Shown here piece after piece: positions 19,547 to 63,804 of a stretch of DNA of 64,000 nt. A program made the translations under genes and the position numbers. The stretch's first letter is position 1; each line of letters opens with the position of its first letter. Under the pieces are notes generated by a model. The model made no database searches and was not told the DNA's origin. It saw only the letters and a list, made by a program, of their open reading frames with translations. This DNA comes from Labilibaculum antarcticum (GTDB lineage: Bacteria > Bacteroidota > Bacteroidia > Bacteroidales > Marinifilaceae), in the NCBI RefSeq assembly GCF_002356295.1, contig NZ_AP018042.1:4248361-4312360 (forward strand), given 5' to 3'.

Positions 19547-19612
19547 TTTGTAAACAGATTAAAAGTAACTAAATTTGTACTACCAATAGTCTGTTCATAT
19601 AGACTTGGTTGA
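19547..19612 (+). promoter_or_regulatory. gntR2 promoter and leader inverted repeat
   Basis: TTTG (19547-19550), 19-nt spacer, TAAATTTG (19570-19577): same spacing as at gntR1. TTGTACTACCA overlaps the -7 and fits the loose FadR-family pattern TNGTnnnACnA. Just downstream, ACCAATAGTCT and AGACTTGGT form an interrupted inverted repeat around the expected transcription start. Confidence 0.55.
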
Positions 19613-19628
19613 AAATTTAGATACTTGT

Positions 19629-20336
19629 ATGGACTTATTAGATAATTTTAAGACGATCGAGGTGGAAACACCTGTTGATAAAATTATTCGTCAGATTAGA
19701 GGTTTAATTGTTTCAGGATATTTAAATCCTGGGGATAAATTGCCTTCCGAAAGAAAGCTTTCAGAAAAGCTAGGGGTTGGTAGAACATATATCAGAGATG
19801 CTATAAAAAAATTAGAGTTTTTTGGTATATTAACCACGCTCCCACAATCGGGTGTTGTTGTAAATGGAATCAATATTTCAGCAATGGAAGGTTTGTTTTC
19901 TAATATAATGAAAATAGAGCGACCAGAATTCTTTTCTTTAGTTGAGGCTCGAGTAAATATGGAGATCTTTTCGGTGCGAGCTGCTGCTGAAAGAAGGACA
20001 GAGGATGATTTAAAAGAATTAGAAAAAGCATTGGAAGCGTATGAGGATAAGGCTATAAATAACCTTCCTGCTGAAAATGAAGATTTTCTATTTCATTTAA
20101 AGATTGCTGAAGCAGGTCACAACGCGGTGGTAAAAGCCATGATGTTAATTATTTTGCCTGATATTCTAGCCATATACAGAAAAGAACATGTTTGTAGTAA
20201 GGATGTGAAGGAGGGGAATTCAAATGAACATCGATCTATTTTGAAAGCAATTATAGATCAAGATGGTGAAAAATCAGCTTTACTAATGTCGAATCATTTG
20301 CACAAAGTTTTAGAGTTTAGTAAAAAAATATTGTAA
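19629..20336 (+). CDS. FadR-type GntR transcriptional regulator 2
   Basis: 235 residues from the ATG at 19629 (an in-frame TTG at 19605 would add eight residues, but the ATG aligns with the start of the paralogue). N-terminal GntR winged helix (PGDKLPSERKLSEKLGVGRT) and C-terminal FCD domain (FHLKIAEAGHN). It is about two-thirds identical by eye to the regulator at 4893. The recognition-helix region is almost the same in both, so they probably share operators but may sense different ligands or form heterodimers. Confidence 0.88.
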   Translation: MDLLDNFKTIEVETPVDKIIRQIRGLIVSGYLNPGDKLPSERKLSEKLGVGRTYIRDAIKKLEFFGILTTLPQSGVVVNGINISAMEGLFSNIMKIERPEFFSLVEARVNMEIFSVRAAAERRTEDDLKELEKALEAYEDKAINNLPAENEDFLFHLKIAEAGHNAVVKAMMLIILPDILAIYRKEHVCSKDVKEGNSNEHRSILKAIIDQDGEKSALLMSNHLHKVLEFSKKIL

Positions 20337-20343
20337 TGAGATT

Positions 20344-20368
20344 GTGCGTGAAAGCGCACTGTTTTTTT
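20344..20368 (+). terminator. Terminator of gntR2
   Basis: GTGCG (20344-20348) and CGCAC (20355-20359) with a 6-nt loop, followed by G and seven T. The remaining bases to 20674 are AT-rich with no recognisable gene. Confidence 0.8.
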
Positions 20369-20674
20369 ACTCAACGAAATAATTTCCCATACAATTTATT
20401 GCTTTTTTTAATCTACTTCTACAATTAATCAATCAGCATTTGATTGGTTTCTGCATGTTTCCTTTCTTATAATCAGGTTATTATTTTTTTTCTGTCCAAT
20501 TCTTTTGTTCCATTATCAATGAATATATTTTCAGAGATAATCGGAATGATATGGTTATTTGTGCAAGATTAATGGGTAACAATGCATTTTCTTGCACAAG
20601 TTTTCTTGGATTAAATAAATTGTAGAATTAAAAATTAGGAGAGCTGGGCATAGTGCCGAAATTCTCAAATAAAA

Positions 20675-21433
20675 ATGGGAATTATGGAACTATTAGAACC
20701 AATTTTTATTATTGTGGCTGGTGTATTTGCCGGATTTTTGAATGTAGTAGCAGGTGGTGGATCATTAATTACCTTACCTCTGCTAATTTTTTTAGGTTTG
20801 CCACCAACAATTGCAAACGGAACAAATCGAATTGCTATTCTGGCGCAAAACAGTTTTGCTATAGCCAAATTTAATCAAAAAGGGATAAGCTCTTATCCTT
20901 ATAGTATTTATCTGGGAATCTCGGCTCTTTTTGGATCAACTATAGGAGCCTTCTTGGTTGTGGATATTGATGAAGACTTATTTAAGAAAATTCTTTCCAT
21001 TGTGATGGTTTGCGTAGCCATTTTAATCCTTTTTAATTCAAAAGCGAGTCCGCTTGCTAATGGAGAGAAAATGGAATTTAAAAATCAAATGTGGGGAGTG
21101 ATTAGTTTTTTCTTTATAGGGATTTATGGAGGTTTTCTTCATGCTGGAATAGGCTTCATTATTATTTTGGCTCTCACAAAAATAAATGGATTTTCACTAG
21201 TGAAAACCAATAGTATCAAAGTAACCGTTGCCTTGGTGTACACAATTGCCGCAGTAGGAGTTTTTATTTATAAGGATGCTATCAATTGGAAATATGCTTT
21301 GATATTGGCTATTGGAAATTCTGTTGGGGGATATCTTGGATCTGTATTCTCAGTAAAAAAAGGAGACAAGTGGATCAAAGGAATACTTCTGATCACCATA
21401 TTAGTTTTGGCAATTAAATTGTGGTTTTATTAA
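20675..21433 (+). CDS. TauE/SafE-family inner-membrane anion permease
   Basis: 252 residues, about eight hydrophobic helices arranged as two similar halves. The first half carries the family motif GVFAGFLNVVAGGGSLITLP, the second YGGFLHAGIGF. Members move organic or sulfur-containing anions across the inner membrane; the substrate cannot be told here. It stands 47 bases ahead of the KDG kinase in the same direction, so a role in uronate-derived anion flux is possible but unproven. Confidence 0.85.
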   Translation: MGIMELLEPIFIIVAGVFAGFLNVVAGGGSLITLPLLIFLGLPPTIANGTNRIAILAQNSFAIAKFNQKGISSYPYSIYLGISALFGSTIGAFLVVDIDEDLFKKILSIVMVCVAILILFNSKASPLANGEKMEFKNQMWGVISFFFIGIYGGFLHAGIGFIIILALTKINGFSLVKTNSIKVTVALVYTIAAVGVFIYKDAINWKYALILAIGNSVGGYLGSVFSVKKGDKWIKGILLITILVLAIKLWFY

Positions 21434-21480
21434 TCACATAGAACGATCGACTAATGATTCATGACTAGTTTTAAAATACA

Positions 21481-22512
21481 ATGAATAAAAGAGTAATCAC
21501 TTTTGGAGAAATTATGTTGCGATTGGCAACACCTGGCTATCAACGTTTTTCACAAACCGACATCTTTGATGCTACTTTTGGTGGAGGAGAGGTGAATGTT
21601 TCCGTATCATTGGCAAATTTCGGAATTTCGACTGCCTATGTTACCCGATTGCCGGATAATGATATTGGAAAATCCTGTAAAGAAATATTAAATAAATTTG
21701 GTGTTGATACTGGCCATATTATTTTGGGTGGAGATCGCATGGGAATTTATTATCTGGAGACAGGAGCGGTGGCCAGGGGCTCTAAAGTGGTTTACGATCG
21801 TGCTAATTCTGCTTTTTCAAGTTTAAAAAAGGGCATGATCGATTGGGATGAGGTATTTAAAGATGCTGGGTGGTTCCATTGGACTGGGATAACACCTGCT
21901 ATTTCTCCCGGCGCTACTGAGGTGTTAGAGGAAGCATTGGTGAAAGCGAACGAAATGGGAATTACTGTTTCTTGTGATGTGAATTACCGAAGTAAACTTT
22001 GGAAAGAAGGGAATAAAGTGGAGGAGGTGATGCCACGCTTAATAGCTAAAACCAATGTGCTAATTGGAAATGAATTTGATGCAGAGAAAGTCTTAGGTGT
22101 TCCAATTAATCTGCCTCCAGAAGTAGAATATTCAAAATTTACCTTTGGCTTTGTTGCCAAGCAGCTCATGCAAAAATACCCAAAGCTCGAAAAGGTAATT
22201 ACTACACGTCGAGGAACTATTAGCGCCAATTACAATACTTGGGTTGGAATAATGTTCGATGGCAAACAAGTGATCGAATCTTCCACCTATCAAATGACTC
22301 ATATTGTTGATCGTGTAGGTGGAGGTGATGCTTTGATGGCTGGATTGATTTATGGTTTTCTTACTTATCCTGATAATTCTCAAAAGATAATTGATTTTGC
22401 TGTTGCTGCCTCATTTTTAAAACATACCATTTCAGGTGATGTGAATAATGTTAGTCTTGAAGAAGTGGAACAACTGATGAAAGGAAACATAGGAGGGGAA
22501 ATAGATCGGTAG
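21481..22512 (+). CDS. kdgK: 2-keto-3-deoxygluconate kinase (PfkB family)
   Basis: 343 residues of the ribokinase/PfkB fold. N-terminal substrate region GEIMLRLATPGYQRF and FGGGEVNVSVSLANFG; C-terminal PfkB signature DRVGGGDALMAG with the catalytic Asp283. KDG kinases make KDPG from KDG with ATP in the cytoplasm, the step after the SDR reductase of this locus. Slightly longer than the roughly 310-residue bacterial enzymes. No KDPG aldolase gene is present in the window, so it must lie elsewhere. Confidence 0.9.
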   Translation: MNKRVITFGEIMLRLATPGYQRFSQTDIFDATFGGGEVNVSVSLANFGISTAYVTRLPDNDIGKSCKEILNKFGVDTGHIILGGDRMGIYYLETGAVARGSKVVYDRANSAFSSLKKGMIDWDEVFKDAGWFHWTGITPAISPGATEVLEEALVKANEMGITVSCDVNYRSKLWKEGNKVEEVMPRLIAKTNVLIGNEFDAEKVLGVPINLPPEVEYSKFTFGFVAKQLMQKYPKLEKVITTRRGTISANYNTWVGIMFDGKQVIESSTYQMTHIVDRVGGGDALMAGLIYGFLTYPDNSQKIIDFAVAASFLKHTISGDVNNVSLEEVEQLMKGNIGGEIDR

Positions 22513-22524
22513 TAACATTTTTAG

Positions 22525-22576
22525 TGAACGCGAAGGGGTTATTCCTTGTTCCACGTCATGAACTAGTTATACGAAC
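22525..22576 (-). pseudogene. Fragment of a degenerate tRNA-Arg unit (3' end)
   Basis: On the minus strand this is the 3' part of the same degenerate tRNA-Arg as in the 27.3-28.5 kb array: acceptor 3' strand (GAACGCG), T-stem side, then the T-arm insertion containing CGTCATGAACTAG. It directly follows kdgK and lies downstream of the intact tRNA, where the array also lies at the second locus. Confidence 0.65.
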
Positions 22577-22621
22577 TACAATGGTTTTTCATTCCTAATT
22601 TCGTTTTGATAATTGTGCATA

Positions 22622-22653
22622 AAAAAACTCATCAATTTCTTGATGAGTTTTTA
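22622..22653 (-). terminator. tRNA-Arg terminator
   Basis: AAAACTCATCAA...TTGATGAGTTTT hairpin directly past the tRNA 3' end on the minus strand, with flanking T runs. It also converges on kdgK transcription. Confidence 0.7.
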
Positions 22654-22654
22654 G

Positions 22655-22728
22655 TGAACGCGGAGGGATTCGAACCCCCAACCTCTACGGCCGTAACGTA
22701 GTGCACTATCCAGTTATGCTACGCATCC
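22655..22728 (-). tRNA. tRNA-Arg (anticodon ACG), copy 1
   Basis: A complete 74-nt cloverleaf on the minus strand: acceptor GGATGCG with CGCGTTC (two G-U pairs), D-arm AACTGGATA, anticodon stem CTACG/CGTAG with loop TTACGGC (anticodon ACG), T-arm GGGGG-TTCGAAT-CCCTC. CCA is not encoded. The base sequence is the same as the copy at 28589-28662. A promoter element TATATTTG lies 21 bases upstream (plus-strand 22750-22757). Confidence 0.95.
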
Positions 22729-22749
22729 TTTTTGCTTTTTAAGGCGGTG

Positions 22750-22757
22750 CAAATATA
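22750..22757 (-). promoter_or_regulatory. tRNA-Arg copy 1 promoter -7 element
   Basis: TATATTTG followed by GCACCGC on the minus strand, identical to the element before the second tRNA-Arg. The following 22760-23199 has no gene that I can see. Confidence 0.6.
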
Positions 22758-23199
22758 GGTATTTTTCTATTAAAACAACACGACTCTGTTTAAATGTTAC
22801 GAGAAAAATGTCTTTTTGTTATCCTGAAAATATAATAAGGAATTTCTTCAGATGGATTAAAACAAAAGGTTGTGACGAAACCAAGCTAGTAAAATATTTT
22901 TCTATTGGTGTTAAATGCTGAAAATAAGAACCTTAGGCCAATCGAAGAGCTGAAGTGAAAATATTGGAAATGTAAGTTTTATCAGAAATATAATAAAGCT
23001 GTCCTATTTTTGGAGATGGTTTTTGCCTTAATAATTCCCAGTTTGTAATCTTGTAAATAGTAAGAACAAAAAAACTCACAATTTATTGATAGAGACTGAA
23101 TTTATTACTTATGATCACAATTTGAACTAATTCATTGACTGATATAGTTTATTGTTGTAAATTAAGTCGTTGACAAATTATTAACGAATATATTTAACT

Positions 23200-25104
23200 A
23201 TGAGATTTAGAATTCCACATTTTTGTATTTTAGTAATGGCATTATCAATAATTGCTTGCACTTCAAAAGAAAAGAAAGTAGAACGCCCGCCTAAAATTGC
23301 TCTCGAAGATTTCTTTAAAAATCCAGAAAAGACTTCATATAAGATATCTCCAGAAGGAACAAAATTCTCTTATCGAGCTCCTTATCAGGATAGAATGAAT
23401 ATTTTCATTCAGGATATTGCCAGTGATAAATCGGTTCAAATTACCTTTGAAACTGATCGCGACATATCAGGATATTTCTGGGCTAACGAAAATCGAATAT
23501 TGTATTTGAAAGATAATGGAGGAGATGAAAATTTTAAACTTTACGGTGTTGATATTGATGGTAAAAATTTAGTGTGTTTTACCGATTTTGAAAATGTAAG
23601 AACTGGTATTATCGATCGATTGGATGAAATTTCTGATGAGATCATCATATCTATGAATAAGAGAAATCCTCAGGTTTTCGATCCTTATCGTTTAAATATA
23701 ATTACAGGAGAACTTACTATGCTTTATGAGAATCCTGGGAATATTTCTGGTTGGATTACAGATCATGATGGGAAATTAAGAGCTGCAATGTCTGTTACCG
23801 ATATGGTTAATTCTACATTATTGTATCGTGAAACCGAGAATGACGAATTTAAACCAGTTATTACAACTAGTTTTAAAGAGACATTATCTCCACAATTCTT
23901 CACGTTCGACAACAAAATGCTGTATGCCAGTTCTAATATTGGCCGCGATAAGCAAGAGATAGTGATTGTGGATCCTGCTACAGGTAAAGAAACTGAATCA
24001 TTGTTTGCTCATGATATGGTTGATGTAGAAAGCTTATCGTATTCAAAGAAAAGAAAGGTTCTTACCTATGCATTGTATAGTACCGATATGGTTCACTATA
24101 AATTCTTCGATGATGAAAGTGAGAAGATGTACAATCGTGTTAAGAAAGAATTATCTGCTTACGATTGCTATTTTACGAGCACTAATAAAAATGAAGATAA
24201 GTATTTGGTTCGCACCTACAGCGATAGATCTTTAGGTGCTTACTATTTTTACGATAAAAATACTGATGAACTCAAATTGATTAGTAGCGTTAGTCCCTGG
24301 ATGAACGAAGAACACATGGCCAAAATGAAGCCTATTCACTATACTAGTCGAGACGGTAAATTGATACATGGCTACCTAACTTTACCTGTTGGTGTTAAAG
24401 CAAAAAAACTTCCTGTTGTGGTTAATCCACATGGAGGTCCATGGGCAAGAGATGAGTGGGGCTTTAATCCCGAAATTCAATTCCTTGCAAATAGAGGATA
24501 TGCTGTTCTTCAAATGAACTTTAGAGGTTCTACTGGTTATGGTCGCGACTTCTGGGAATGTTCATTCAAGCAATGGGGACAAAGTATGCAGGATGATATA
24601 ACAGATGGTGTAAAATGGGCTATAGAACAAGGTATTGCTGATAAAGATAGGATTGCAATATATGGCGGAAGTTATGGAGGTTATGCAACCTTGGCTGGTT
24701 TGGCTTTTACTCCGGATTTGTATAAGTGTGGAGTAGACTACGTTGGGGTAAGTAACATGTTTACTTTTATGAAAACATTCCCTCCTTATTGGGAGCCGTA
24801 TCGACAAATGTTGTACGAAATGGCAGGAGATCCGGTAAAAGATAGTTTGATGTTTACACAAATTTCACCAGCATTTCATGCTGATAAAATTACCGCAGCT
24901 TTGTTTGTAGCCCAAGGTGCTAATGATCCTAGGGTAAATCTTGCCGAATCGGATCAAATGGTGGAAGCCATGAAGGCACGTGGAGTAGAAGTTGAATATT
25001 TGGTAAAAGACGATGAAGGTCATGGTTTCCGAAATCAGGAAAACCGTTTTGATTTTTATCGGACTATGGAAACATTTTTAGATGCTCATATGAAAGCAGA
25101 ATAG
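23200..25104 (+). CDS. S9-family (prolyl oligopeptidase-like) peptidase lipoprotein
   Basis: 634 residues. Lipoprotein signal (SIIACTSKEKK, Cys20), an N-terminal beta-propeller (~35-370) and a C-terminal alpha/beta hydrolase (~390-630). The catalytic triad is readable: Ser491 in GGSYGGY, Asp576 in GANDPRVN, His608 in DEGHGF. The oxyanion segment VVNPHGGPWARD is present. It probably cleaves short peptides in the periplasm or at the outer membrane. It stands alone between tRNA-Arg copy 1 and an IS fragment. Confidence 0.92.
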   Translation: MRFRIPHFCILVMALSIIACTSKEKKVERPPKIALEDFFKNPEKTSYKISPEGTKFSYRAPYQDRMNIFIQDIASDKSVQITFETDRDISGYFWANENRILYLKDNGGDENFKLYGVDIDGKNLVCFTDFENVRTGIIDRLDEISDEIIISMNKRNPQVFDPYRLNIITGELTMLYENPGNISGWITDHDGKLRAAMSVTDMVNSTLLYRETENDEFKPVITTSFKETLSPQFFTFDNKMLYASSNIGRDKQEIVIVDPATGKETESLFAHDMVDVESLSYSKKRKVLTYALYSTDMVHYKFFDDESEKMYNRVKKELSAYDCYFTSTNKNEDKYLVRTYSDRSLGAYYFYDKNTDELKLISSVSPWMNEEHMAKMKPIHYTSRDGKLIHGYLTLPVGVKAKKLPVVVNPHGGPWARDEWGFNPEIQFLANRGYAVLQMNFRGSTGYGRDFWECSFKQWGQSMQDDITDGVKWAIEQGIADKDRIAIYGGSYGGYATLAGLAFTPDLYKCGVDYVGVSNMFTFMKTFPPYWEPYRQMLYEMAGDPVKDSLMFTQISPAFHADKITAALFVAQGANDPRVNLAESDQMVEAMKARGVEVEYLVKDDEGHGFRNQENRFDFYRTMETFLDAHMKAE

Positions 25105-25131
25105 ATTCCTTCAGAGTTGACTAGTCCTATA

Positions 25132-25168
25132 AATGAGGATGTCTAATTTTAGGCATCCTCATTTTTGC
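25132..25168 (+). terminator. Terminator of the S9 peptidase gene
   Basis: AATGAGGATG (25132-25141) pairs with CATCCTCATT (25154-25163), then TTTG. Confidence 0.8.
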
Positions 25169-25266
25169 ATTTATTATGTGAACCCTTCTCCTAAAAGAGA
25201 AGGGGAGCTAGTATTGTAGATGTTTAGTATTATCCATCCTTTTTTTTATGGATTTCCTACAAAAAA

Positions 25267-25341
25267 CTAAGCCGCGTTTTTATAATATTTAATTCCAAAA
25301 TCTAAAGGACTTAGATAGTCTAAGGATGAGTGCTTTTTTTC
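25267..25341 (-). pseudogene. IS3-family OrfB C-terminal fragment
   Basis: Minus-strand translation gives EKKHSSLDYLSPLDFGIKYY, then KNAA and a stop. The HSSLxYLSPxxF motif is the C-terminal end of IS3-family transposases. Only these ~24 codons remain. The rest of 25169-25696 contains no other recognisable gene, apart from a few IS-end-like bases. Confidence 0.8.
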
Positions 25342-25696
25342 TTTTATTCATCTTTGCAAAGATAAGGGCTTAACTTAGAGTCCAGTCAAAAGTAGTAGTT
25401 CCACTTTTACATGAGGGAGTAATAGTATCCTTTCTAATTAATAGGGGAGATAGTCTGCATTTCGATTCCCAAAGTCAGAGAATAATCGGAGAACGATTTG
25501 CTAAGGAATATCTAAAGAGAAGTAAATGAACTAACTCTTATTTTTACTATTTGTCTTGAATTTGGAAGTTAAGTTGTTACTAAAAAAGGATGTATTGCTT
25601 GAATACATCCTTTTATTAGTTGTAAAAATAGACAAGACTTTGATTGGATGAATGTGCATACTTGCTCACTCGGAAAAAGTCTTTCCATTTTAGCAA

Positions 25697-26692
25697 TTAT
25701 GGGACCAAAACCAATTGGTTCAAATGACCGTCAATTATTGCAACTTCTTCTTTTGTCAAACTTGATTGAGCTGCTTTAGCATTCTGAATAGCTTGTTCTG
25801 CATTTCGTGCTCCAACCAAAGCAATCGAAATTGCAGGTTGTTCGAGTGTCCATAAAATAACCAACTGTCCAAGGCTCAATCCTTTTGAATCAGCAATTGG
25901 TTTGATTTTGTCTAGAAATTCATTGGTGCGACGAAGATTTTCATCTTTATAAAAAGCTCTTGTTGCACGTTGATCGCCTTCTCCAAATTTATACCCGGGT
26001 TTCATTTTTCCAGTTAACAATCCTCTTTCGAGAGGACTGTAAGCGATAATTCCTTTTCCTTTTTCAAGAGAATAGGGAACGATTTCTTTCTCGATATCGC
26101 GCAGCACCATGCTGTAAGGAACCTGGTTCGAGGCCAGATTTATATATTTCTCTGCTTCCGCAAATTGTTCTGCATTGTAGTTGCAAACACCAGCATAACG
26201 AACTTTTCCTTGCTTAATCAACTCATTAACCGCGTACATTGTTTCTTCAATAGAAGTGGTAACATCTGGCCAGTGAAGCTGGTAAAGATCAATATAATCA
26301 GTACCCAATCGCTTCAAGCTATCTTCACATTCTTTGATGATGCTTTCCTTGCCAGCATATTTGTAAATATCAATGTCTTTTCCATTGTTATCTTGGGATT
26401 TGAAAACGTGTGTGCCTTTTGCTAAGTCCCAACGCATTCCAAATTTGGTAAGAATTTGTATTTTATCTCTAGGGATGTCTTTTATTGCCTGTCCAACAAT
26501 TTCTTCACTGAAGCCCTGTCCATATACTGGAGCCGTATCAATGGAGGTTACCCCTAAATCATAAGACGATTTTATTGCTTTTACGGATTCATTTTGTTCT
26601 GTACCTCCCCATAACCAACCGCCAACGGCAAATGAACCAAATGTGATGGCTGAAAGAGTAAGATCAGTATTTCCTAATTTTCTGTATTTCAT
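25697..26692 (-). CDS. Aldo/keto reductase
   Basis: 331 residues of an (alpha/beta)8 aldo/keto reductase of the YdhF/YghZ-like type. The catalytic tetrad is present: Asp52, Tyr57 (IDTAPVYGQG), Lys83 (ILTKFG), His140 (LYQLHWPD). Cofactor-binding residues near the C-terminus (SIALVGARNAEQ) fit NADPH use. It reduces an aldehyde or ketone in the cytoplasm; the substrate is unknown. Monocistronic. Its leader carries two direct TTACCATAT repeats (about 26713-26735) that could be operator sites. Confidence 0.9.
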   Translation of the reverse strand: MKYRKLGNTDLTLSAITFGSFAVGGWLWGGTEQNESVKAIKSSYDLGVTSIDTAPVYGQGFSEEIVGQAIKDIPRDKIQILTKFGMRWDLAKGTHVFKSQDNNGKDIDIYKYAGKESIIKECEDSLKRLGTDYIDLYQLHWPDVTTSIEETMYAVNELIKQGKVRYAGVCNYNAEQFAEAEKYINLASNQVPYSMVLRDIEKEIVPYSLEKGKGIIAYSPLERGLLTGKMKPGYKFGEGDQRATRAFYKDENLRRTNEFLDKIKPIADSKGLSLGQLVILWTLEQPAISIALVGARNAEQAIQNAKAAQSSLTKEEVAIIDGHLNQLVLVP

Positions 26693-27235
26693 ATGTTTAT
26701 AATTTTATGTTTTTACCATATGGAACTTACCATATAATCATCTCCCTGTGTGTAGGAAGCTTTATACATGGACGTTTCATATGTGTAAATAATATATAAG
26801 TTCTTACGAGCAAATTTGTATTAGCTCTATTTTATGTGTTCACTTAGGGGCGCGGAAGAAGATTGTAAAATTCACTGTTTTTATTCTGTGTTTCTTCAGC
26901 CTTACTCTATTCATACTTATTATCTAGATGCTCGCGCATAGGCAGAAGATTGTCTGCTATGAATTCTATTTTGGGGTGTTTATCTATTTATTAATCGGCA
27001 AATGGATTTGTTCTAACTTTTTAACAGGGCAAATTTACGTATAAAATATGTTAGTCGACAGATTATTTGAGGTAAATATGAATAATTTATTGGTTGTAAA
27101 ACAACCAGTATCAGCTCTTAAGATCAAAAAAGTTGTTTACTACTCGGAATCAAGGGATAGGAAGGGGGCTAGTAAAGCAGTGGAATGTTTTTTTAGGGGC
27201 CTCTCATTGTATATTTTAAAATTTGTGCATTAAAA
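26693..27235. other. Intergenic region without a recognisable gene
   Basis: About 540 bases holding the aldo/keto reductase leader (repeated TTACCATAT) and AT-rich sequence. A 61-codon frame at 27048 has no family resemblance and no clear ribosome binding site, so I do not call it. Confidence 0.6.
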
Positions 27236-27268
27236 AAGAGAGTCTCAAATGGATGAAACTCTCTTTTA
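27236..27268. terminator. Hairpin at the left edge of the tRNA-like array
   Basis: AAGAGAGT (27236-27243) pairs with ACTCTCTT (27258-27265), flanked by A and T runs. It takes the place of the ACTCACCAA/TTGGTGAGT terminator of the other units for the leftmost unit. Confidence 0.65.
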
Positions 27269-27271
27269 TTG

Positions 27272-28588
27272 CGGAGAGAGAGAGGTTACGGCTCGCGTTC
27301 CTCGTCATGAACTCGTGACGAACCCTAAATTTTTACGGCCGTAACCCAGAATTAGTCATGCACTATCCAGTTATGCTTTTGTTTTTATATTACTAGAAGG
27401 ATATTTTGAGGAGAGCAAATTCAAACGTAAGATTCGCGATGATTACAAATTACTCTATAAAACAAAAAAACTCACTAATTTCTTGGTGAGTTTTTTGTGA
27501 ACGCGGAGGGATGATTCCTCGTTCCTCGTCATAAGCTAGGTACGAACCCCCAACCTCTACGGCCGTAACCCAGAATTAGTCATGCACTATCCAGTTATGC
27601 TTTTGTTTTTATATTACTAGAAGGATATTTTGAGGAGAGCAAATTCAAACGTAAGATTCGCGATGATTACAAATTACTCTATAAAACAAAAAAACTCACC
27701 AATTTCTTGATGAGTTTTCAGTGAACGCGGAGGGATGATTCCTCGTTCCTCTTCATAAGCTAGGTACGAACCCCCAACCTCTGCGGCCGTAAGCCAGAAG
27801 TCGTGATGCACTATCCAGTTATGCTTTTGTTTTTATATTACTAGAAGGATATTTTGAGGAGAGCAAATTCAAACGTAAGATTCGCGATGAGTAAAAATCG
27901 GTGTGTAAAACAAAAAAACTCACCAATTTCTTGGTGAGTTTTCTGTGAACGCGGAGGGATGATTCCTCGTTCCTCGTCATAAGCTAGGTACGAACCCCCA
28001 ACCTCTACGGCCGTAAGCCAGAAGTCGTGATGCACTATTCAGTTATGCTTTTGTTTTTATATTACTAGAAGGATATTTTGAGGAGAGCCAATTCAAACGT
28101 AAGATTCGCGATGATTACAAATTACTCTATAAAACAAAAAAACTCACCAATTTCTTGGTGAGTTTTCTGTGAACGCGGAGGGATGATTCCTCGTTCCTCG
28201 TCATAAGCTAGGTACGAACCCCCAACCTCTGCGGCCGTAAGCCAGAAGTCGTGATGCACTATTCAGTTATGCTTTTGTTTTTATATTATTAGAAGGATAT
28301 TGTGTGGAGGGCAAATTCAAACGTAAGATTCGCGATGAGTAAAAATCGGTGTGTAAAACAAAAAAACGCACCAATTTCTTGGTGAGTTTTCTGTGAACGC
28401 GGAGGGATGATTCCTCGTTCCTCGTCATAAGCTAGGTACGAACCCCCAACCTCTATGGTCGTAACCCAGAAGTAGTGATGCACTATCCAGTTATGCTTTT
28501 GTTTTTTTTAGTAGAATATTTTGTGGTGGGTAAATCGAAAATGTTGTGTAAAACAAAAAAACTCACCAATTTCTTGGTGAGTCTTCTG
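27272..28588 (-). repeat. Tandem array of six degenerate tRNA-Arg units, 224-bp period
   Basis: On the minus strand six units follow the intact tRNA-Arg. A shared anchor (CACTATCC on plus) falls at 27361, 27585, 27809, 28033, 28257 and 28481, exactly 224 bases apart. The pseudo-tRNA 3' ends fall at 27498, 27722, 27946, 28170 and 28394 (also 224 apart), with a diverged leftmost copy near 27272. Each unit keeps the D-arm (AACTGGATAGTGCA), the anticodon loop TTACGGC and the acceptor 3' strand. It lacks the acceptor 5' strand, has 29 extra bases in the T arm (with GACGAGGAAC) and 9 extra in the anticodon stem. Each is followed by an ACTCACCAA/TTGGTGAGT hairpin. Upstream of each is TGAATTTGC, a weakened copy of the tRNA promoter. 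Two spacer variants are interleaved. Confidence 0.9.
28561..28582 (-). terminator. tRNA-Arg copy 2 terminator
   Basis: ACTCACCAA...TTGGTGAGT hairpin with a T run on the minus strand, directly past the tRNA 3' end. The same hairpin is repeated in the array units. Confidence 0.8.
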
Positions 28589-28662
28589 TGAACGCGGAGG
28601 GATTCGAACCCCCAACCTCTACGGCCGTAACGTAGTGCACTATCCAGTTATGCTACGCATCC
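28589..28662 (-). tRNA. tRNA-Arg (anticodon ACG), copy 2
   Basis: A complete 74-nt cloverleaf with the same sequence as the copy at 22655-22728: acceptor GGATGCG/CGCGTTC, anticodon loop TTACGGC, T-arm GGGGG-TTCGAAT-CCCTC, no encoded CCA. Its promoter -7 TATATTTG lies at plus 28686-28693. Transcription runs leftwards towards the degenerate array, with a terminator between. Confidence 0.95.
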
Positions 28663-28685
28663 ATGATTACCTTGGTAATGCGGTG

Positions 28686-28693
28686 CAAATATA
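28686..28693 (-). promoter_or_regulatory. tRNA-Arg copy 2 promoter -7 element
   Basis: TATATTTG with GCACCGC after it on the minus strand, 23 bases before the tRNA 5' end. Confidence 0.6.
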
Positions 28694-28918
28694 GATAAAA
28701 TTTACATTTTGGGTCTATAAAAATCATCTTTTTTTTAATTAAAATGATTGGTTTCACTGGAGGGTATATTAAAAAACTCTAAATCTTTTAGTTAGGATTC
28801 GAGTTAAGAATATTTTAGACTAAATTTACCTTGTTCATGTTTATTTTTTCATAGAACCAAGTATAATGCTTTAGGTTTTGTACTTTTGTTATGTAAAATC
28901 ATATAAATAAATAATATA

Positions 28919-31396
28919 ATGAAGAAGTTTCTAAAGTTTTTTGGAGGATTTGTAGTCTTAATTTTAGCTCTACTAATCATTTTACCCTTTTTCTTTAAGG
29001 ATAAAATAATGGAACTGGTGAAAACCGAAATTAATAATACGATAGATGCGGAGGTTCAAATAGGAGATTTGTCTTTATCAATGTTTAAAAATTTCCCAAA
29101 CTTGTATGTTGAGCTCGAAAATGTAAGTGTTGTTGGTAAAAATGAATTTGCAAATGACACCTTGGCTTCAGTCGGTAGTTTATACACTGCAGTTAATTTG
29201 CGCTCAGCTTTGTCTGGTACTCAAATAAAAGTTGGTGCAATTGTATTGGCCAATGCAAAGGTGAATGCAGTTGTTTTGGAATCTGGTAAAGCAAATTGGG
29301 ATATTGTAAAAGAAACTGATGAGCTAATGGTGGAAGAAGAGACTGGTGAGGTTTCCGATTTTAAAGTGATTTTTGAAGAAGTGCGTATTGAAGATTTCTT
29401 TTTGCGTTACGCTGATGCATCCATAAAAACAGTTCTTATTATGGATGATTTGGATTTGACATTAAATGGTGATTTTACAGTGAAATCAACGAATCTAAAT
29501 GTGAAATCACAAATTACAGGAGTCGATTTAGATTACGATGGTGTAAAATATTTGAAAAAGGCAGATGTTACTCTTGATGCCGTTCTTGAAGCTGATCTTC
29601 AGAATATGACATTCACATTTAAAGAAAATAAACTGACCTTAAATGAGCTGGTGTTTGGTATCGATGGAAATGTTGGAATGCTTGAAGATGGTTATAGTCT
29701 GGATTTGAAAATGAATGCTCAAGAGGCAGATTTCAAAACATTGCTTTCAATGGTTCCTGATGTGTTTAGAGCCGATATTAAAGGTATAGAGACCAACGGA
29801 ACTCTTGCATTAACAGCTTTTGTAAAAGGGGACTATAAAGAAGAGTATATGCCTTCATTTGGGGCCAAGTTAGCTGTTCATAAGGCAACCCTTAAATATC
29901 CTGATCTAAAAGAGTCAATTAATAATATTACCATAAACGCGGAAGTAAAACATCCGGGTGGAGATTTGGATCTATTAACTGCTGATGTAAATTCATTTCA
30001 TTTTGAGGTTGCTAACAACCCATTCGATGCAGAAATTCATGTAAAGAATCCAATGTCAGATCCTTACATGAATGGCTTATTTAAGGGGGTTATCGATTTC
30101 GCAAAAATTCGCCACGCAATCCCAATGGATAGCATAAAAATTAAGGGGATTGTTACTTCTGATGTTAGTTTTAGCGGAAAGATGTCTGCCATAGAAAAAG
30201 AGGAATATGAAAAAATCACGACCAAAGGGGATGTGAAATTGAAAAATTTTGAATTTTCCACTCCTGATTTCCCTCAGGGAATTAAGATTATTAGTTCTGT
30301 TCTGAATTTTACACCCAAGTACATCAGCTTAACTTCTTTTAACTCCAAAATTGGAACTTCTGATATTCAGTTAACAGGAAAGATAGAGGACTACATTCCT
30401 TACATTTTAAAAGATAAAGTTTTAAAAGGAAACTTCAATTTGACTTCTAATTTGTTCGATTTAAATGAATTTATGAATGGGAAAGAGGAAGTAAAAGCAA
30501 CTGCGGATACAATTCCTTTAACAGCGGTTGAGATTCCGGCTAATCTCGACTTGAGATTAGTTTCTTCCATGAAGCTGATTCAGTACGATAAAATGGATAT
30601 CCAGAATGTTAATGGTTTAATTGTTGTTAAAAATTCAAAAGCACAGTTGACAGACTTATCCATGGAAATGCTAAGAGGGTCGATGACAATGAATGGTTCG
30701 TACAGTACTAAGAATATTCAGAAACCAGCCATCGATTTTGGTTTGGATGTGAAGAATTTTGATATCAAATCAGCATACGAGTCATTGAGCATGATAAAGG
30801 AAATGGTGCCAATTGCTATGAATTGTTCAGGTAAGATTTCATCCGATTTAGAAATAACCTCTTTGCTTGATCAGGAAATGAGCCCAGTAATGAGTAGCTT
30901 GAATGGAAAGGGTGCTATTCACTCCAAAGAGATTATTATAAAAGACAATAAAGCATTCAATGCCTTGGCCTCAGCATTAAAAAATGACAAGTACAAGCGG
31001 ATATCTGTAACCCAATTCGATATGGATTTTGTGATAACAGATGGAAATGTGGAAGTAAAACCATTTGAGGCTAAAATTGCTGGCAACCCTGCCAAAATAT
31101 ATGGAACGCAGTCGGTTGATGGAAAATTGAATTTTACCATGGATATGAAATTGCCAAAAGAGGAGTTAGGCAAAGAGGTAAATCAGTATTTCGATAAATT
31201 GCCAGGGTTTGATGAAGTTAAAGTACTTGATGTTACTGTGAAAATCACTGGTACGGTTGATAATCCAAATGTAAAGCTTGATTTAAGCAAAGCAATTAAA
31301 CAGGCACAAGAGGCAGTTGCCAAAGAGCTGGAACGACGAGCCAAAAAAGAATTGCAAAAGAAAGGTAAAGATTTATTGAAGAGTTTATTCAAGTAG
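28919..31396 (+). CDS. AsmA-family envelope protein
   Basis: 825 residues with one N-terminal membrane anchor (residues ~5-27) followed by a long beta-strand-rich repeating body and a C-terminal AsmA-like domain (~600-790) ending in a Lys-rich helix. The early segment AEVQIGDLSLSMFKNFPNLYVEL is typical of the AsmA N-terminal part in Bacteroidota. Proteins of this type are related to bridge-like lipid transfer proteins and act between inner and outer membrane; the exact lipid role here is unknown. Monocistronic, with a strong terminator. Confidence 0.85.
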   Translation: MKKFLKFFGGFVVLILALLIILPFFFKDKIMELVKTEINNTIDAEVQIGDLSLSMFKNFPNLYVELENVSVVGKNEFANDTLASVGSLYTAVNLRSALSGTQIKVGAIVLANAKVNAVVLESGKANWDIVKETDELMVEEETGEVSDFKVIFEEVRIEDFFLRYADASIKTVLIMDDLDLTLNGDFTVKSTNLNVKSQITGVDLDYDGVKYLKKADVTLDAVLEADLQNMTFTFKENKLTLNELVFGIDGNVGMLEDGYSLDLKMNAQEADFKTLLSMVPDVFRADIKGIETNGTLALTAFVKGDYKEEYMPSFGAKLAVHKATLKYPDLKESINNITINAEVKHPGGDLDLLTADVNSFHFEVANNPFDAEIHVKNPMSDPYMNGLFKGVIDFAKIRHAIPMDSIKIKGIVTSDVSFSGKMSAIEKEEYEKITTKGDVKLKNFEFSTPDFPQGIKIISSVLNFTPKYISLTSFNSKIGTSDIQLTGKIEDYIPYILKDKVLKGNFNLTSNLFDLNEFMNGKEEVKATADTIPLTAVEIPANLDLRLVSSMKLIQYDKMDIQNVNGLIVVKNSKAQLTDLSMEMLRGSMTMNGSYSTKNIQKPAIDFGLDVKNFDIKSAYESLSMIKEMVPIAMNCSGKISSDLEITSLLDQEMSPVMSSLNGKGAIHSKEIIIKDNKAFNALASALKNDKYKRISVTQFDMDFVITDGNVEVKPFEAKIAGNPAKIYGTQSVDGKLNFTMDMKLPKEELGKEVNQYFDKLPGFDEVKVLDVTVKITGTVDNPNVKLDLSKAIKQAQEAVAKELERRAKKELQKKGKDLLKSLFK

Positions 31397-61665: not shown

Positions 61666-63804
61666 ATGCATAGATTATTGAAAAGGCAAGTTCGGAAGTA
61701 TTTATCTGCGGAGGATGAAAGTAAATTTAAGGACTTTCTGAAAGCTGTCGATGAGGCCTATGTGGATTATGATATGGATTTAAAACAGACTGAAAACATC
61801 TTGGAAAATTGTTCGATTGAACTTTTTACCTTAAATAATGACCTGCGTAAAGTTGTTGTCAATAAGACCAAGGAGGTTGAAGTTACGTCTTCCAAAATGG
61901 AATCAATAGTAAATAGTATTTCAGAGGTAATTTTTCAAACTAATTTTTCTGGAGAATGGTTGTACCTAAATTCGGCATGGAATAAAATTACTGGTTTTGT
62001 TATTGAGAAAAGTCTAAATAGTAATGTTTTTGAGTTCATACATCCAGATGATGCAGAAAATTGTATGGTAATTCTGAGGGATTTAATTGAAAGCAAAAGG
62101 AATTTTGTATTTATTGAACTTAGGCTAGTAACTATAAGTGGAAGTTATAAGTGGTGCGAAGCAACAATTCGAGTAACAAGAGATTCTGATGGGAAAAGAA
62201 ATGGTTTTACCGGAACATTAAAAGATATTACGTCAAGGAAAAGACTCGAGGAAGAGAAGAAAAAAACAGAAGAAAAATTCAAATTGATATTTGAAAAATC
62301 TTCTGTTGCATACTTAATCATAAAAGAATCCCGATTTATAGAATGCAATCAGGCTTGTTTGGATTTATATGGTGTAAGAAAAAGGGAAGATTTTATTGGC
62401 AAATATGTAAAAGATTTTTCTCCTGAATACCAACCCGATGGAGAATTGTCTTTCGACAAAGCAAAAGAGCGCATTGAAGAATGTAAGATCAAAGGCTATT
62501 CAAAGTTCGATTGGATGCATGTAAGAGAGAATGGAACAGAATTCCCTGTTGAGGTTGCTTTAAATACAGTGCCTTTAATGGATGGAAATGTTTTGTTTGT
62601 AGTGTTAAACGACTTATCAGAAAGAAAAAGGGTAGAGCAAGAATTAATCATTGCAAAAGAAAAAGCAGAGGAAGCAACTTCGGTTAAAGCACAGTTTTTA
62701 TCGACAATGTCACACGAAATTCGAACTCCGATGAATGCTGTTATTGGAGTCACTCATTTGTTGTCAGAGGATAATCCAAGAGAAGATCAAATTCAGAATA
62801 TCAATATATTGAAATTGTCAGCAGATAATTTAATGACTTTAATCAATGATGTTTTAGACTTTAGTAAGATTGAAGCTGGTCGGGTTAATCTTGAATCGAT
62901 CGATTTTAATTTTAGAAATTTAGTAAAGAATATCGTTTCTGGTTTTGAGATTAAATCAAGAGAAAAGGGACTGGATTTTATCGTAGACATTGATCCTAAA
63001 ATACCGTCCTATTTAATTGGAGATCCAAATCGTATATCGCAAATTATTAATAACTTATGCGGCAACGCAGTTAAGTTTACAGATTCAGGAAATGTTCAGG
63101 TTTTGGTGAGTTATCAAGAGAAATGTGATGATAAGGTTAAATTGAAATTTGAAATAAAAGATACAGGGGTCGGAATTCCTGAGGATAAGCAAGATCAAAT
63201 TTTTCAGTCTTTTTCTCAGGCTGATTCAAATACTACCAGACTATACGGAGGAACAGGTTTGGGTCTAACCATCTCAAAAAAGTTAATTGAGATTATGGGG
63301 GGCTTTATTAATGTGATAAGTGATCTTGAATTTGGAACTACTTTCTGTTTTGAGCTGAGTTTGATGATTAGCCATAAGTCAAAGCCAAAATTAGATTTAT
63401 CCATTGATACTTACCGAAATACAGCTAAAATTAAGGGCTTGCATATTTTGTTAGTTGAAGATAATGAGATGAATATTTTAATTCTGAAGCAGTTTTTGAA
63501 AAAGTGGGGAATTACTTACGAAATTGCCATGAATGGTCAGGTAGCTTTAGGAAAAGTTCAGTCTGGTAATTTTGATATGGTGCTAATGGATTTGCAGATG
63601 CCAATATTGGATGGTTATCAAGCGACACAAAGTATTAGAAGTCTTGCTGACGATAAGTTTAGAGAGATCCCGATATTAGCCATTACTGCCTCGGCATTTA
63701 ATGATATTCGTAAAAGAGTTTTGGAAGCAGGTATGAATGATTATATCACCAAACCGATAAATCCAGAAGAGCTGTTCCGTAAAATTGAAAAACACATGAA
63801 CTAA
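61666..63804 (+). CDS. Hybrid sensor histidine kinase (PAS-PAS-HisKA-HATPase-REC)
   Basis: 712 residues without membrane segments: N-terminal helical region (~1-75), two PAS domains (~80-190 and ~205-320), HisKA with phospho-acceptor His350 (STMSHEIRTP), HATPase with NLCGNAVKF, DTGVGIPEDKQDQIF and GTGLGLTISKKL, and a C-terminal receiver with Asp642 (LMDLQMP). A short coiled coil joins PAS2 to HisKA. It forms a two-gene unit with the FIST protein. No separate response regulator is seen. Confidence 0.94.
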   Translation: MHRLLKRQVRKYLSAEDESKFKDFLKAVDEAYVDYDMDLKQTENILENCSIELFTLNNDLRKVVVNKTKEVEVTSSKMESIVNSISEVIFQTNFSGEWLYLNSAWNKITGFVIEKSLNSNVFEFIHPDDAENCMVILRDLIESKRNFVFIELRLVTISGSYKWCEATIRVTRDSDGKRNGFTGTLKDITSRKRLEEEKKKTEEKFKLIFEKSSVAYLIIKESRFIECNQACLDLYGVRKREDFIGKYVKDFSPEYQPDGELSFDKAKERIEECKIKGYSKFDWMHVRENGTEFPVEVALNTVPLMDGNVLFVVLNDLSERKRVEQELIIAKEKAEEATSVKAQFLSTMSHEIRTPMNAVIGVTHLLSEDNPREDQIQNINILKLSADNLMTLINDVLDFSKIEAGRVNLESIDFNFRNLVKNIVSGFEIKSREKGLDFIVDIDPKIPSYLIGDPNRISQIINNLCGNAVKFTDSGNVQVLVSYQEKCDDKVKLKFEIKDTGVGIPEDKQDQIFQSFSQADSNTTRLYGGTGLGLTISKKLIEIMGGFINVISDLEFGTTFCFELSLMISHKSKPKLDLSIDTYRNTAKIKGLHILLVEDNEMNILILKQFLKKWGITYEIAMNGQVALGKVQSGNFDMVLMDLQMPILDGYQATQSIRSLADDKFREIPILAITASAFNDIRKRVLEAGMNDYITKPINPEELFRKIEKHMN

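Follow-up and report, generated by a model that had tools for sequence, protein, structure and literature searches.

A tandem array of tRNA-Arg-derived units in Labilibaculum antarcticum as a probable ORF-less member of a group of small elements in tRNA 3' flanks

Six degenerate copies of tRNA-Arg(ACG) lie in tandem, on the minus strand, downstream of an intact tRNA-Arg(ACG) gene (tRNA-A) in the genome of Labilibaculum antarcticum. On balance, we think this array is probably an ORF-less, tandemly amplified member of a group of small elements that occupy the 3' flanks of tRNA genes. Here, "the window" is the whole stretch of 64,000 nucleotides that was analyzed (contig NZ_AP018042.1, 4,248,361 to 4,312,360); coordinates refer to it unless the own genome or another genome is named. 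G, C and L numbers are our handles for genomes, contigs and loci.

Results

Structure of the array

The features discussed below are the following.

28686..28693, minus strand: TATATTTG, the -7-type promoter motif of tRNA-A (from the sequence)
28588..28662, minus strand: tRNA-A, intact tRNA-Arg(ACG) at the head of the array (ARAGORN; Rfam, 57.3 bits)
28556..28587, minus strand: terminator hairpin of tRNA-A (terminator scan)
28284..28507, minus strand: unit 1, 224 bp, with its own terminator hairpin at about 28366-28387 (repeats, D-arm copies, terminator scan)
28060..28283, minus strand: unit 2, terminator at 28137-28168 (repeats, D-arm copies, terminator scan)
27836..28059, minus strand: unit 3, terminator at 27913-27944 (repeats, D-arm copies, terminator scan)
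27612..27835, minus strand: unit 4, terminator at 27690-27719 (repeats, D-arm copies, terminator scan)
27388..27611, minus strand: unit 5, with terminator-like inverted repeat I21 at 27465-27496, which is absent from the terminator scan output
27272..27387, minus strand: unit 6, with a differing 3' end (sequence, folding)
27234..27267, minus strand: terminator-like inverted repeat at the end of the array (I20), unlike the internal ones (inverted-repeat search)
28409..28438, minus strand: 30-nt T-loop insert of unit 1 (sequence comparison)
28185-28214, 27961-27990, 27737-27766 and 27513-27542, minus strand: 30-nt T-loop inserts of units 2-5
22654..22728, minus strand: tRNA-B, a second intact tRNA-Arg(ACG) (ARAGORN, Rfam)
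22524..22599, minus strand: one short element, of the same family, that follows tRNA-B (R1 model, 65.5 bits, E 2.4e-14; it is one of the 17 sequences used to build R1)

A reading made from the sequence alone (the sequence-only reading) had described six degenerate copies with an exact 224-bp period, and this was confirmed. Tandem Repeats Finder gave a period of 224 over 27296-28506, with 5.4 copies, 93% matches and 0% indels. Four successive steps of 224 separate the five copies of a 300-nt reference, and the six D-arm copies give five intervals, each of 224. The spacing from tRNA-A to the first copy is not 224 (157-195, depending on the anchor). The array sits in a single-contig assembly of 5,718,991 bases (5.72 Mb). 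Repeats can be mis-assembled, but these copies are only 89-98% identical to one another over 66-300 nt, and in sister species this locus carries separate arrays and has contig ends in the G003 and G008 assemblies. We therefore regard an assembly artefact as exceedingly improbable.

Units 1-5 share one order of parts: an A-rich start, a D-arm (AGCATAACTGGATAGTGC, with one change in two units), 14 nt, TTACGGC or variants of it, GGGTTCG, the 30-nt insert, ATCCCTCCGCGTTCAC and a terminator-like hairpin. The A-rich sequence replaces the acceptor 5' strand in all six units, as had been claimed, and the 14 nt stand in place of the tRNA's 5 (+9), which bears out the predicted 9-nt insertion in the anticodon stem. 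A 29-nt insertion in the T arm had been ascribed to all units; we found it in units 1-5, where 30 nt after GGGTTCG stand for 1 nt of the tRNA (+29, in the T-loop). Similarly, the acceptor 3' strand was said to be kept in each unit. It is kept in units 1-5 but is gone from unit 6, where GCCGTAACC (27284-27292) instead pairs with GGTTACGGC (27338-27346) and closes a stem around the T-arm hairpin. ARAGORN on the whole window and Rfam on 22000-30000 called no unit a tRNA and reported only the two intact genes, in agreement with the view that the units are not tRNAs. Rfam matches to the SpF41 sRNA that overlap tRNA-A and tRNA-B fell below the gathering score and were rejected as a by-product of tRNA plus terminator.

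tRNA-Arg(ACG) loci in L. antarcticum and its relatives

Two further tRNA-Arg(ACG) genes of the genome, tRNA-B and a third one (G000 5497166), each have one element or unit. With at most one mismatch, the insert core has eight matches in the genome, all at the three Arg(ACG) loci. When up to three mismatches were allowed there were 46 matches vs 42 for a reversed-pattern control, and we rejected the insert core as a dispersed repeat. A scan with a strict exact pattern found five stretches, all from Labilibaculum (L. filiforme, L. euxinus and Labilibaculum sp. K2S), and exact-pattern scanning of viral contigs gave no match. A search with the unit in 59 genomes matched 23 at E up to 0.001; many of these matches are intact tRNA halves and terminators alone, and real arrays were told apart by reading the sequences by eye.

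By these comparisons, tRNA-Arg(ACG) is a hotspot that recurs across the family: unit length in relatives is about 130, 168, 182 or 216 bp, and some loci have just a single unit or one that has decayed. We recognized the locus orthologous to tRNA-A by synteny, from the adjoining AsmA-family gene. Against the six 224-bp units of L. antarcticum, it holds three units of about 168 bp in G006, one unit in G004, one short element in G002 and one decayed unit in G007. In G003 (L. filiforme) there are at least four units, of which three measure about 182 bp and another carries a deletion; they are split between two contig ends, presumably neighbors. G008 has a contig end at this locus. When copy number was compared between relatives, as the sequence-only reading had proposed, sister species ranged from a single decayed unit to six. 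Within one orthologous locus, rapid change is seen in copy number, period and form, which speaks for our preferred reading.

Other loci add to this variety. G003 has two further sets of three units at other Arg(ACG) genes, one set with a length of about 130 bp per unit and the other of about 133 bp. Members of a second genus (G017, G028) have 216-bp units that lack the T-insert and carry additional nucleotides at the same point ahead of the anticodon loop, and members of a third (G024, G034, G059, G061) have short elements without D-arm and anticodon. The T-insert is a clean insertion relative to the units of G004 and G006, being absent from the matching units, so the loss of the acceptor strand and the change in the anticodon arm probably preceded it. 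At locus L112, the type of terminator that directly follows tRNA-Arg in L058, L050 and L128 was found after the last array unit; this fits entry of units between a tRNA and its terminator. At L114 (G003:C11), the T-arm of one unit is deleted between two GAGG repeats, a short-homology deletion.

Small GIY-YIG genes downstream of tRNAs

The L. antarcticum genome has 84 tRNA genes in 41 zones, and the zones within 1.5 kb of a tRNA make up 2.4% of it. By BLAST, partial copies of a tRNA 3' part were seen beside the Arg(ACG), Asn and Phe tRNAs alone; for tRNA-Ser there is a single 5' copy of 17 nt. The genome has four matches to PF01541 (GIY-YIG), one in a 600-aa frame, UvrC by its length, and three solitary ones. 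All three solitary GIY-YIG genes lie 3' of a tRNA (Asn, Phe), at loci where these small genes are accompanied by copied terminators and by tRNA 3' remnants that a palindrome interrupts. At the Phe locus (L061, L136/L137; own genome 2768517-2769654), two GIY-YIG cassettes of about 565 bp stand in tandem behind tRNA-Phe, and the tRNA-Phe 3' ends in them are broken by palindromes. At the Asn locus (L079/L134; own genome 1941235-1942100), three tRNA-Asn genes precede a GIY-YIG gene and remnants that contain TCCCGACGAGTCGGGA.

Within the family, PF01541 matched 48 of 56 genomes. We took 56 stretches with solitary matches, some of them overlapping or neighboring, and used hits of UvrC length only as 11 controls; nine hits were omitted (G075:C372, G063:C1:1226499, G072:C2:30158, G008:C43, G061:C45:126705, G012:C83, G017:C10:428705, G006:C2 and G018:C26). 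A tRNA lay within 1.5 kb in 28 of the 56 loci, 20 of which also had partial tRNA copies, and in none of the 11 controls. All 31 GIY-YIG genes at these loci (27 loci; L137 repeats L136) are downstream of the tRNA and on its strand, 57-1058 bp away. Counted per gene, the linked tRNAs are Asn (11), Met (7), Phe (5), Trp (3), Ser (3) and Asp (2), with none for Arg.

At L218, the tRNA-Phe 3' end, the terminator and the next bases stand on both sides of the gene, and the second copy has CCCCGAAAGCTTTCGGGG in its T-loop. Among the eight tRNA-Met remnant units of L154 (G024:C5), each of about 128 bp, lies a single GIY-YIG gene. The closing stem of the tRNA-Met remnants follows the tRNA 3' end, being GGATC/GATCC in G024 and GGACC/GGTCC in G034. 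Eight of the 28 tRNA-linked loci, tRNA-Trp loci among them, have no partial copy detected by BLAST. At the tRNA-Trp loci of G012 and G071 (L201, L203), which have no visible tRNA remnants, the GIY-YIG gene is flanked by CCTGAGCGNAGTCGAAGG palindromes, presumably of a widespread repeat type. Y5, Y16, R26 and E64, which we take to be the GIY-YIG catalytic residues, are invariant among ten tRNA-linked proteins, and Pfam named GIY-YIG in all five of the tRNA-linked proteins that were scanned.

From ten proteins, all from tRNA-linked loci, we built a profile, A2, that is hence biased towards such loci. In the class it matched 208 of 296 genomes. A tRNA was present at 28 of the 30 best class loci (29 of them outside the own genome), upstream of the gene and on its strand in 28 of 28, and 23 of the 30 had partial copies. 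In the order, A2 matched 153 of 295 genomes; among the best 29 loci, 22 had a tRNA, with the gene downstream on the same strand in 21, and 20 had partial copies. These class and order loci are the best-scoring ones for a profile derived from tRNA-linked proteins and not a random sample, and three of the 29 are already among the 30 best order-level PF01541 loci. One class locus with no tRNA in range, L281, is one end of an array of ten GIY-YIG copies at an exact 457-bp period (G298:C9:906040-910392), with tRNA-Met-like remnants, seen by eye, between the copies. The same contig has four GIY-YIG copies at 379 bp (G298:C9:624695-626065).

A link to tRNAs is not general for GIY-YIG genes. Only 4 of the best 30 order-level PF01541 loci have a tRNA nearby, and both the 26 others and the 28 unlinked loci of the family survey weigh against our preferred reading. 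L267 and L272 are linked to Arg(tct), alone or together with other tRNAs, and Arg(ACG) is the linked tRNA in none of the family, class and order GIY-YIG loci that were examined. An Rfam search of 16 family and 20 order GIY-YIG loci returned one tRNA only. The openly accessible literature searched here yielded no account of GIY-YIG genes accompanied by tRNA 3' remnants in Bacteroidota.

Relationship between the Arg array and the GIY-YIG elements

The Arg array has the anatomy of the tRNA-tail GIY-YIG elements. Both lie 3' of a tRNA on the same strand and both have a 3' remnant broken by an insert and a copied terminator. The array differs in that no GIY-YIG gene was found in it: when the window and 52 loci chosen for tRNA-Arg or its elements, with flanks of mostly 1.5 kb, were searched by tblastn with 21 GIY-YIG proteins, some of them identical, nothing matched at E 0.01. 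Conversely, model R1 had no match in 36 GIY-YIG loci, whereas L235 and L236, searched alongside, matched. Thus, the two kinds of locus have anatomy and place in common but no detected sequence, and this counts against the preferred reading.

Outside the family the Arg-type element is rare, R1 having two matches under strict filters in 295 other genomes of the class, and this too counts against the preferred reading. One of the two, in G270, was rejected as apparently coding sequence when read by eye, as was an R1 match at window 63014-63080 (E 0.042). An Arg-type element follows tRNA-Ser in G381, which belongs to another family. L235 (G024:C47:241400-243000) has a tRNA-Ser-like 3' remnant with an Arg-type T-loop insert, recognized by eye, and no intact tRNA in its 1.6 kb. 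In G034, of the genus of G024, a GIY-YIG gene follows tRNA-Ser.

These data bear on a simpler origin, in which a tRNA was duplicated in tandem and its copies then decayed and spread by unequal crossing-over, with no mobile element or nuclease at tRNA-Arg. The lack of a nuclease gene at the Arg(ACG) loci searched with tblastn speaks for this, as does the G006 unit at the tRNA-A locus whose tRNA body is otherwise perfect and lacks the acceptor 5' strand only. Intact tandem tRNAs are also common in the genome, e.g. six tRNA-Lys(TTT) genes about 106 bp apart (own genome 4596708-4597312). Against it stand the same anatomy (a palindrome in the T-loop or anticodon arm plus a terminator copy), which recurs beside GIY-YIG genes at the tRNAs for Phe, Asn, Asp and Met, the Arg-type element behind tRNA-Ser in G381 and the tRNA-Ser-like remnant in G024. 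The antisense T-arm strand of the short elements would likewise not be expected from direct duplication. We consider plain duplication to be a serious but somewhat unlikely explanation.

The units could also be attachment-site remnants of phages or integrative elements that use tRNA-Arg, given that copies of tRNA 3' ends are the usual footprint of tyrosine-recombinase integration. A Pfam scan of seven ORFs at 19605-31396 found no integrase; the matches were to a GntR regulator, TauE, PfkB, prolyl oligopeptidase, aldo/keto reductase and AsmA, and one ORF had no match. Moreover, the units carry D-arm and anticodon sequence and are just 130-224 bp long, and remnants of the GIY-YIG-linked kind explain the pattern better. 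We judge an integrase origin to be very improbable.

Conservation and predicted structure of the units

The consensus of units 1-5 differs from three G003 units at 9 of 105 columns (96 identical). Seven of these nine differences lie in the anticodon insert region; when its 15 positions are left out, 88 of 90 are identical, and the T-insert has 1 difference in 30. By comparison, the neighboring coding gene is 82% identical between the two species. At that rate the probability of nine or fewer differences in 105 is 0.005 and of one or fewer in 30 is 0.02. The spacer between units is hardly related to that of G003, since 19 of 500 shuffles align as well. A unit body kept better than the neighboring gene is not predicted by plain decay. 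It could reflect selection or exchange with the tRNA, but the tRNA has no T-insert, so exchange does not explain the conservation of the insert.

In an alignment of 19 short elements, 89% of cells are paired in the T-arm hairpin and 65% in the closing helix. Three pairs are changed on both sides, a count that 55 of 500 shuffles reach and that compares with 1-4 in slid controls, and the covariation score was reached by 21 of 500 shuffles. In an earlier pair count on 17 short elements the figure had been 6 of 500; with L054 at 1682 and L042, both of which have damaged hairpins, added to make 19 rows, covariation no longer stands out. These counts lend at most weak support to a maintained structure, be it of RNA or DNA.

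Could the units make RNA?

Each unit was said to keep a weakened promoter. This was not upheld. The motif of tRNA-A, TATATTTG, matches TAnnTTTG, which we take to be the Bacteroidota -7-type promoter consensus; TAnnTTTG is present in five of the six L. antarcticum units vs none of six units from three relatives. A promoter scan of the array found three sigma-70-like sites vs 4.0 in shuffles. Terminator-like sites, counted on both strands, were more frequent (7 vs 1.5 in shuffles). The claim that the units keep a terminator is supported, with tRNA-A and units 1-4 reported by the terminator scan and unit 5 visible as inverted repeat I21; past unit 6, whose 3' end differs, the array ends in the terminator-like inverted repeat I20, which is unlike the internal ones. 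Of the folds that the sequence-only reading had suggested checking, one unit stretch folds better than its shuffles (z -3.96, terminator included), but unit 6 reaches just z -1.53.

The same reading had raised the possibility that short tRNA-like RNAs act as decoys for ArgRS, RNases or ribosomes; a regulatory or RtT-like RNA is a variant of this. The retained terminators, the conserved unit body, the fold of the one stretch, the well-paired T-arm hairpin of the short elements and the annotation of rttR in Escherichia coli as a small RNA are consistent with it. However, the units have no promoter motif in common with those of relatives, a terminator-like hairpin stands ahead of every unit and copy number is unstable. 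The short elements have neither D-arm nor anticodon, so that species keep differing tRNA parts, and the covariation is unconvincing. A decoy RNA has no direct support; it is an unlikely reading that nothing in the data calls for, and the units probably have no function as RNA. The other suggestion of the sequence-only reading, a locally amplified repeat, is supported. The weights we give to plain duplication, a decoy RNA and attachment-site remnants draw on the Pfam scan of the ORFs and on the covariation count over 19 rows.

Comparison with the RtT repeats of E. coli

The closest known system is the tyrT/RtT array of 178-bp repeats in E. coli. The RtT RNA is released as a stable RNA during tRNA processing. 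In E. coli we found an array at tyrV of 178 bp x 3.1 copies and four RtT matches (RF00391), three in this array and one between tyrT and tyrV. Both the E. coli tyrT/tyrV RtT repeats (rttR, tpr) and Arg units 1-5 are tandem repeats 3' of an intact tRNA, on its strand, that end in a copy of the tRNA 3' end, which unit 6 lacks. RtT and the short Arg elements further share an antisense T-arm strand, often with TGAGAA (in 12 of 19 Arg rows; E. coli has four [AG]TGAGAA sites), a hairpin that closes with GGTTC, and GAATAATCC or GAGTAATCC, or a like sequence, before the tRNA 3' end. This antisense strand and hairpin occur in the short elements of relatives and, decayed, behind tRNA-B; the long units have D-arm and anticodon sequence there. 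Unlike RtT, the long units retain this D-arm and anticodon sequence in part, lack a tpr gene and have a terminator-like hairpin each.

Searches in both directions gave marginal scores. R1 scored 14.5 bits on the tyrT-tyrV RtT element (E 0.0044 in 1801 bases, a rough value) but, with E up to 10 allowed, did not report any of the three units in the E. coli array. The RtT model aligned over its full length with one G034 Arg element at 25.2 bits (library-wide E 0.6; the gathering score is 45), the one element that it matched in the ten loci of relatives it was given, and had no match in window 22000-30000 at E up to 1. Because the RtT scores are below gathering, none falls in the tested part of the window and R1 misses the array units, we file the array as apparently resembling RtT repeats and not as a member of RF00391. 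Nothing relevant on RtT was found among openly accessible papers.

Discussion

The elements would sit between a tRNA and its terminator, each made of a tRNA 3' end copy, which an insert breaks within the T-loop or close to it, and a terminator copy. Because the element brings this terminator copy, the upstream intact tRNA still ends properly. In related bacteria, elements of this kind at other tRNAs often have a small GIY-YIG gene and can form exact-period arrays. We propose that a GIY-YIG endonuclease, present or past, cuts at or near tRNA 3' ends and that repair by recombination among copies of the tRNA tail and terminator would insert and multiply units. The T-loop insert may, speculatively, shield the copied tRNA end from being cut again.

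With no nuclease in cis at the Arg array, the enzyme may have been lost or may act in trans, or plain recombination may suffice. The array might accordingly grow and shrink by unequal crossing-over or be cut in trans, for which the three tRNA-linked GIY-YIG proteins of L. antarcticum are candidates.

There is a precedent in phage T6 for this kind of amplification. Tandem amplification of a 718-bp tRNA-Tyr segment is reported to need the nuclease activity of SegB, a GIY-YIG homing endonuclease, together with phage recombination genes (PMC13096335). As in the case considered here, a GIY-YIG enzyme is encoded beside tRNA genes and a segment with tRNA sequence is repeated in tandem (PMC13096335). 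The T6 system differs in being a phage, in a 718-bp repeat that contains a full tRNA and a truncated segB, and in that the need for the enzyme was demonstrated (PMC13096335). The Arg array has no enzyme gene and is known here from its sequence. By analogy, we propose that the logic of SegB applies to the tRNA-tail elements.

A wider reading is more tentative. The tRNA 3' flanks of Bacteroidia may host a large, apparently undescribed selfish family of GIY-YIG endonucleases of about 80-105 aa, each on an insert-broken tRNA 3' copy with a copied terminator, that multiply in exact tandem. The Arg arrays would then be satellites without a nuclease and the E. coli RtT repeats a distant satellite. 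If so, what looked like an isolated oddity would become one case of a recurrent process in which tRNA 3' ends serve as landing and amplification sites for minimal nucleases. This offers a testable origin for tRNA-linked tandem repeats, those of E. coli RtT included, and suggests that exact-period arrays near tRNAs can arise via nucleases of the kind shown in phage T6.
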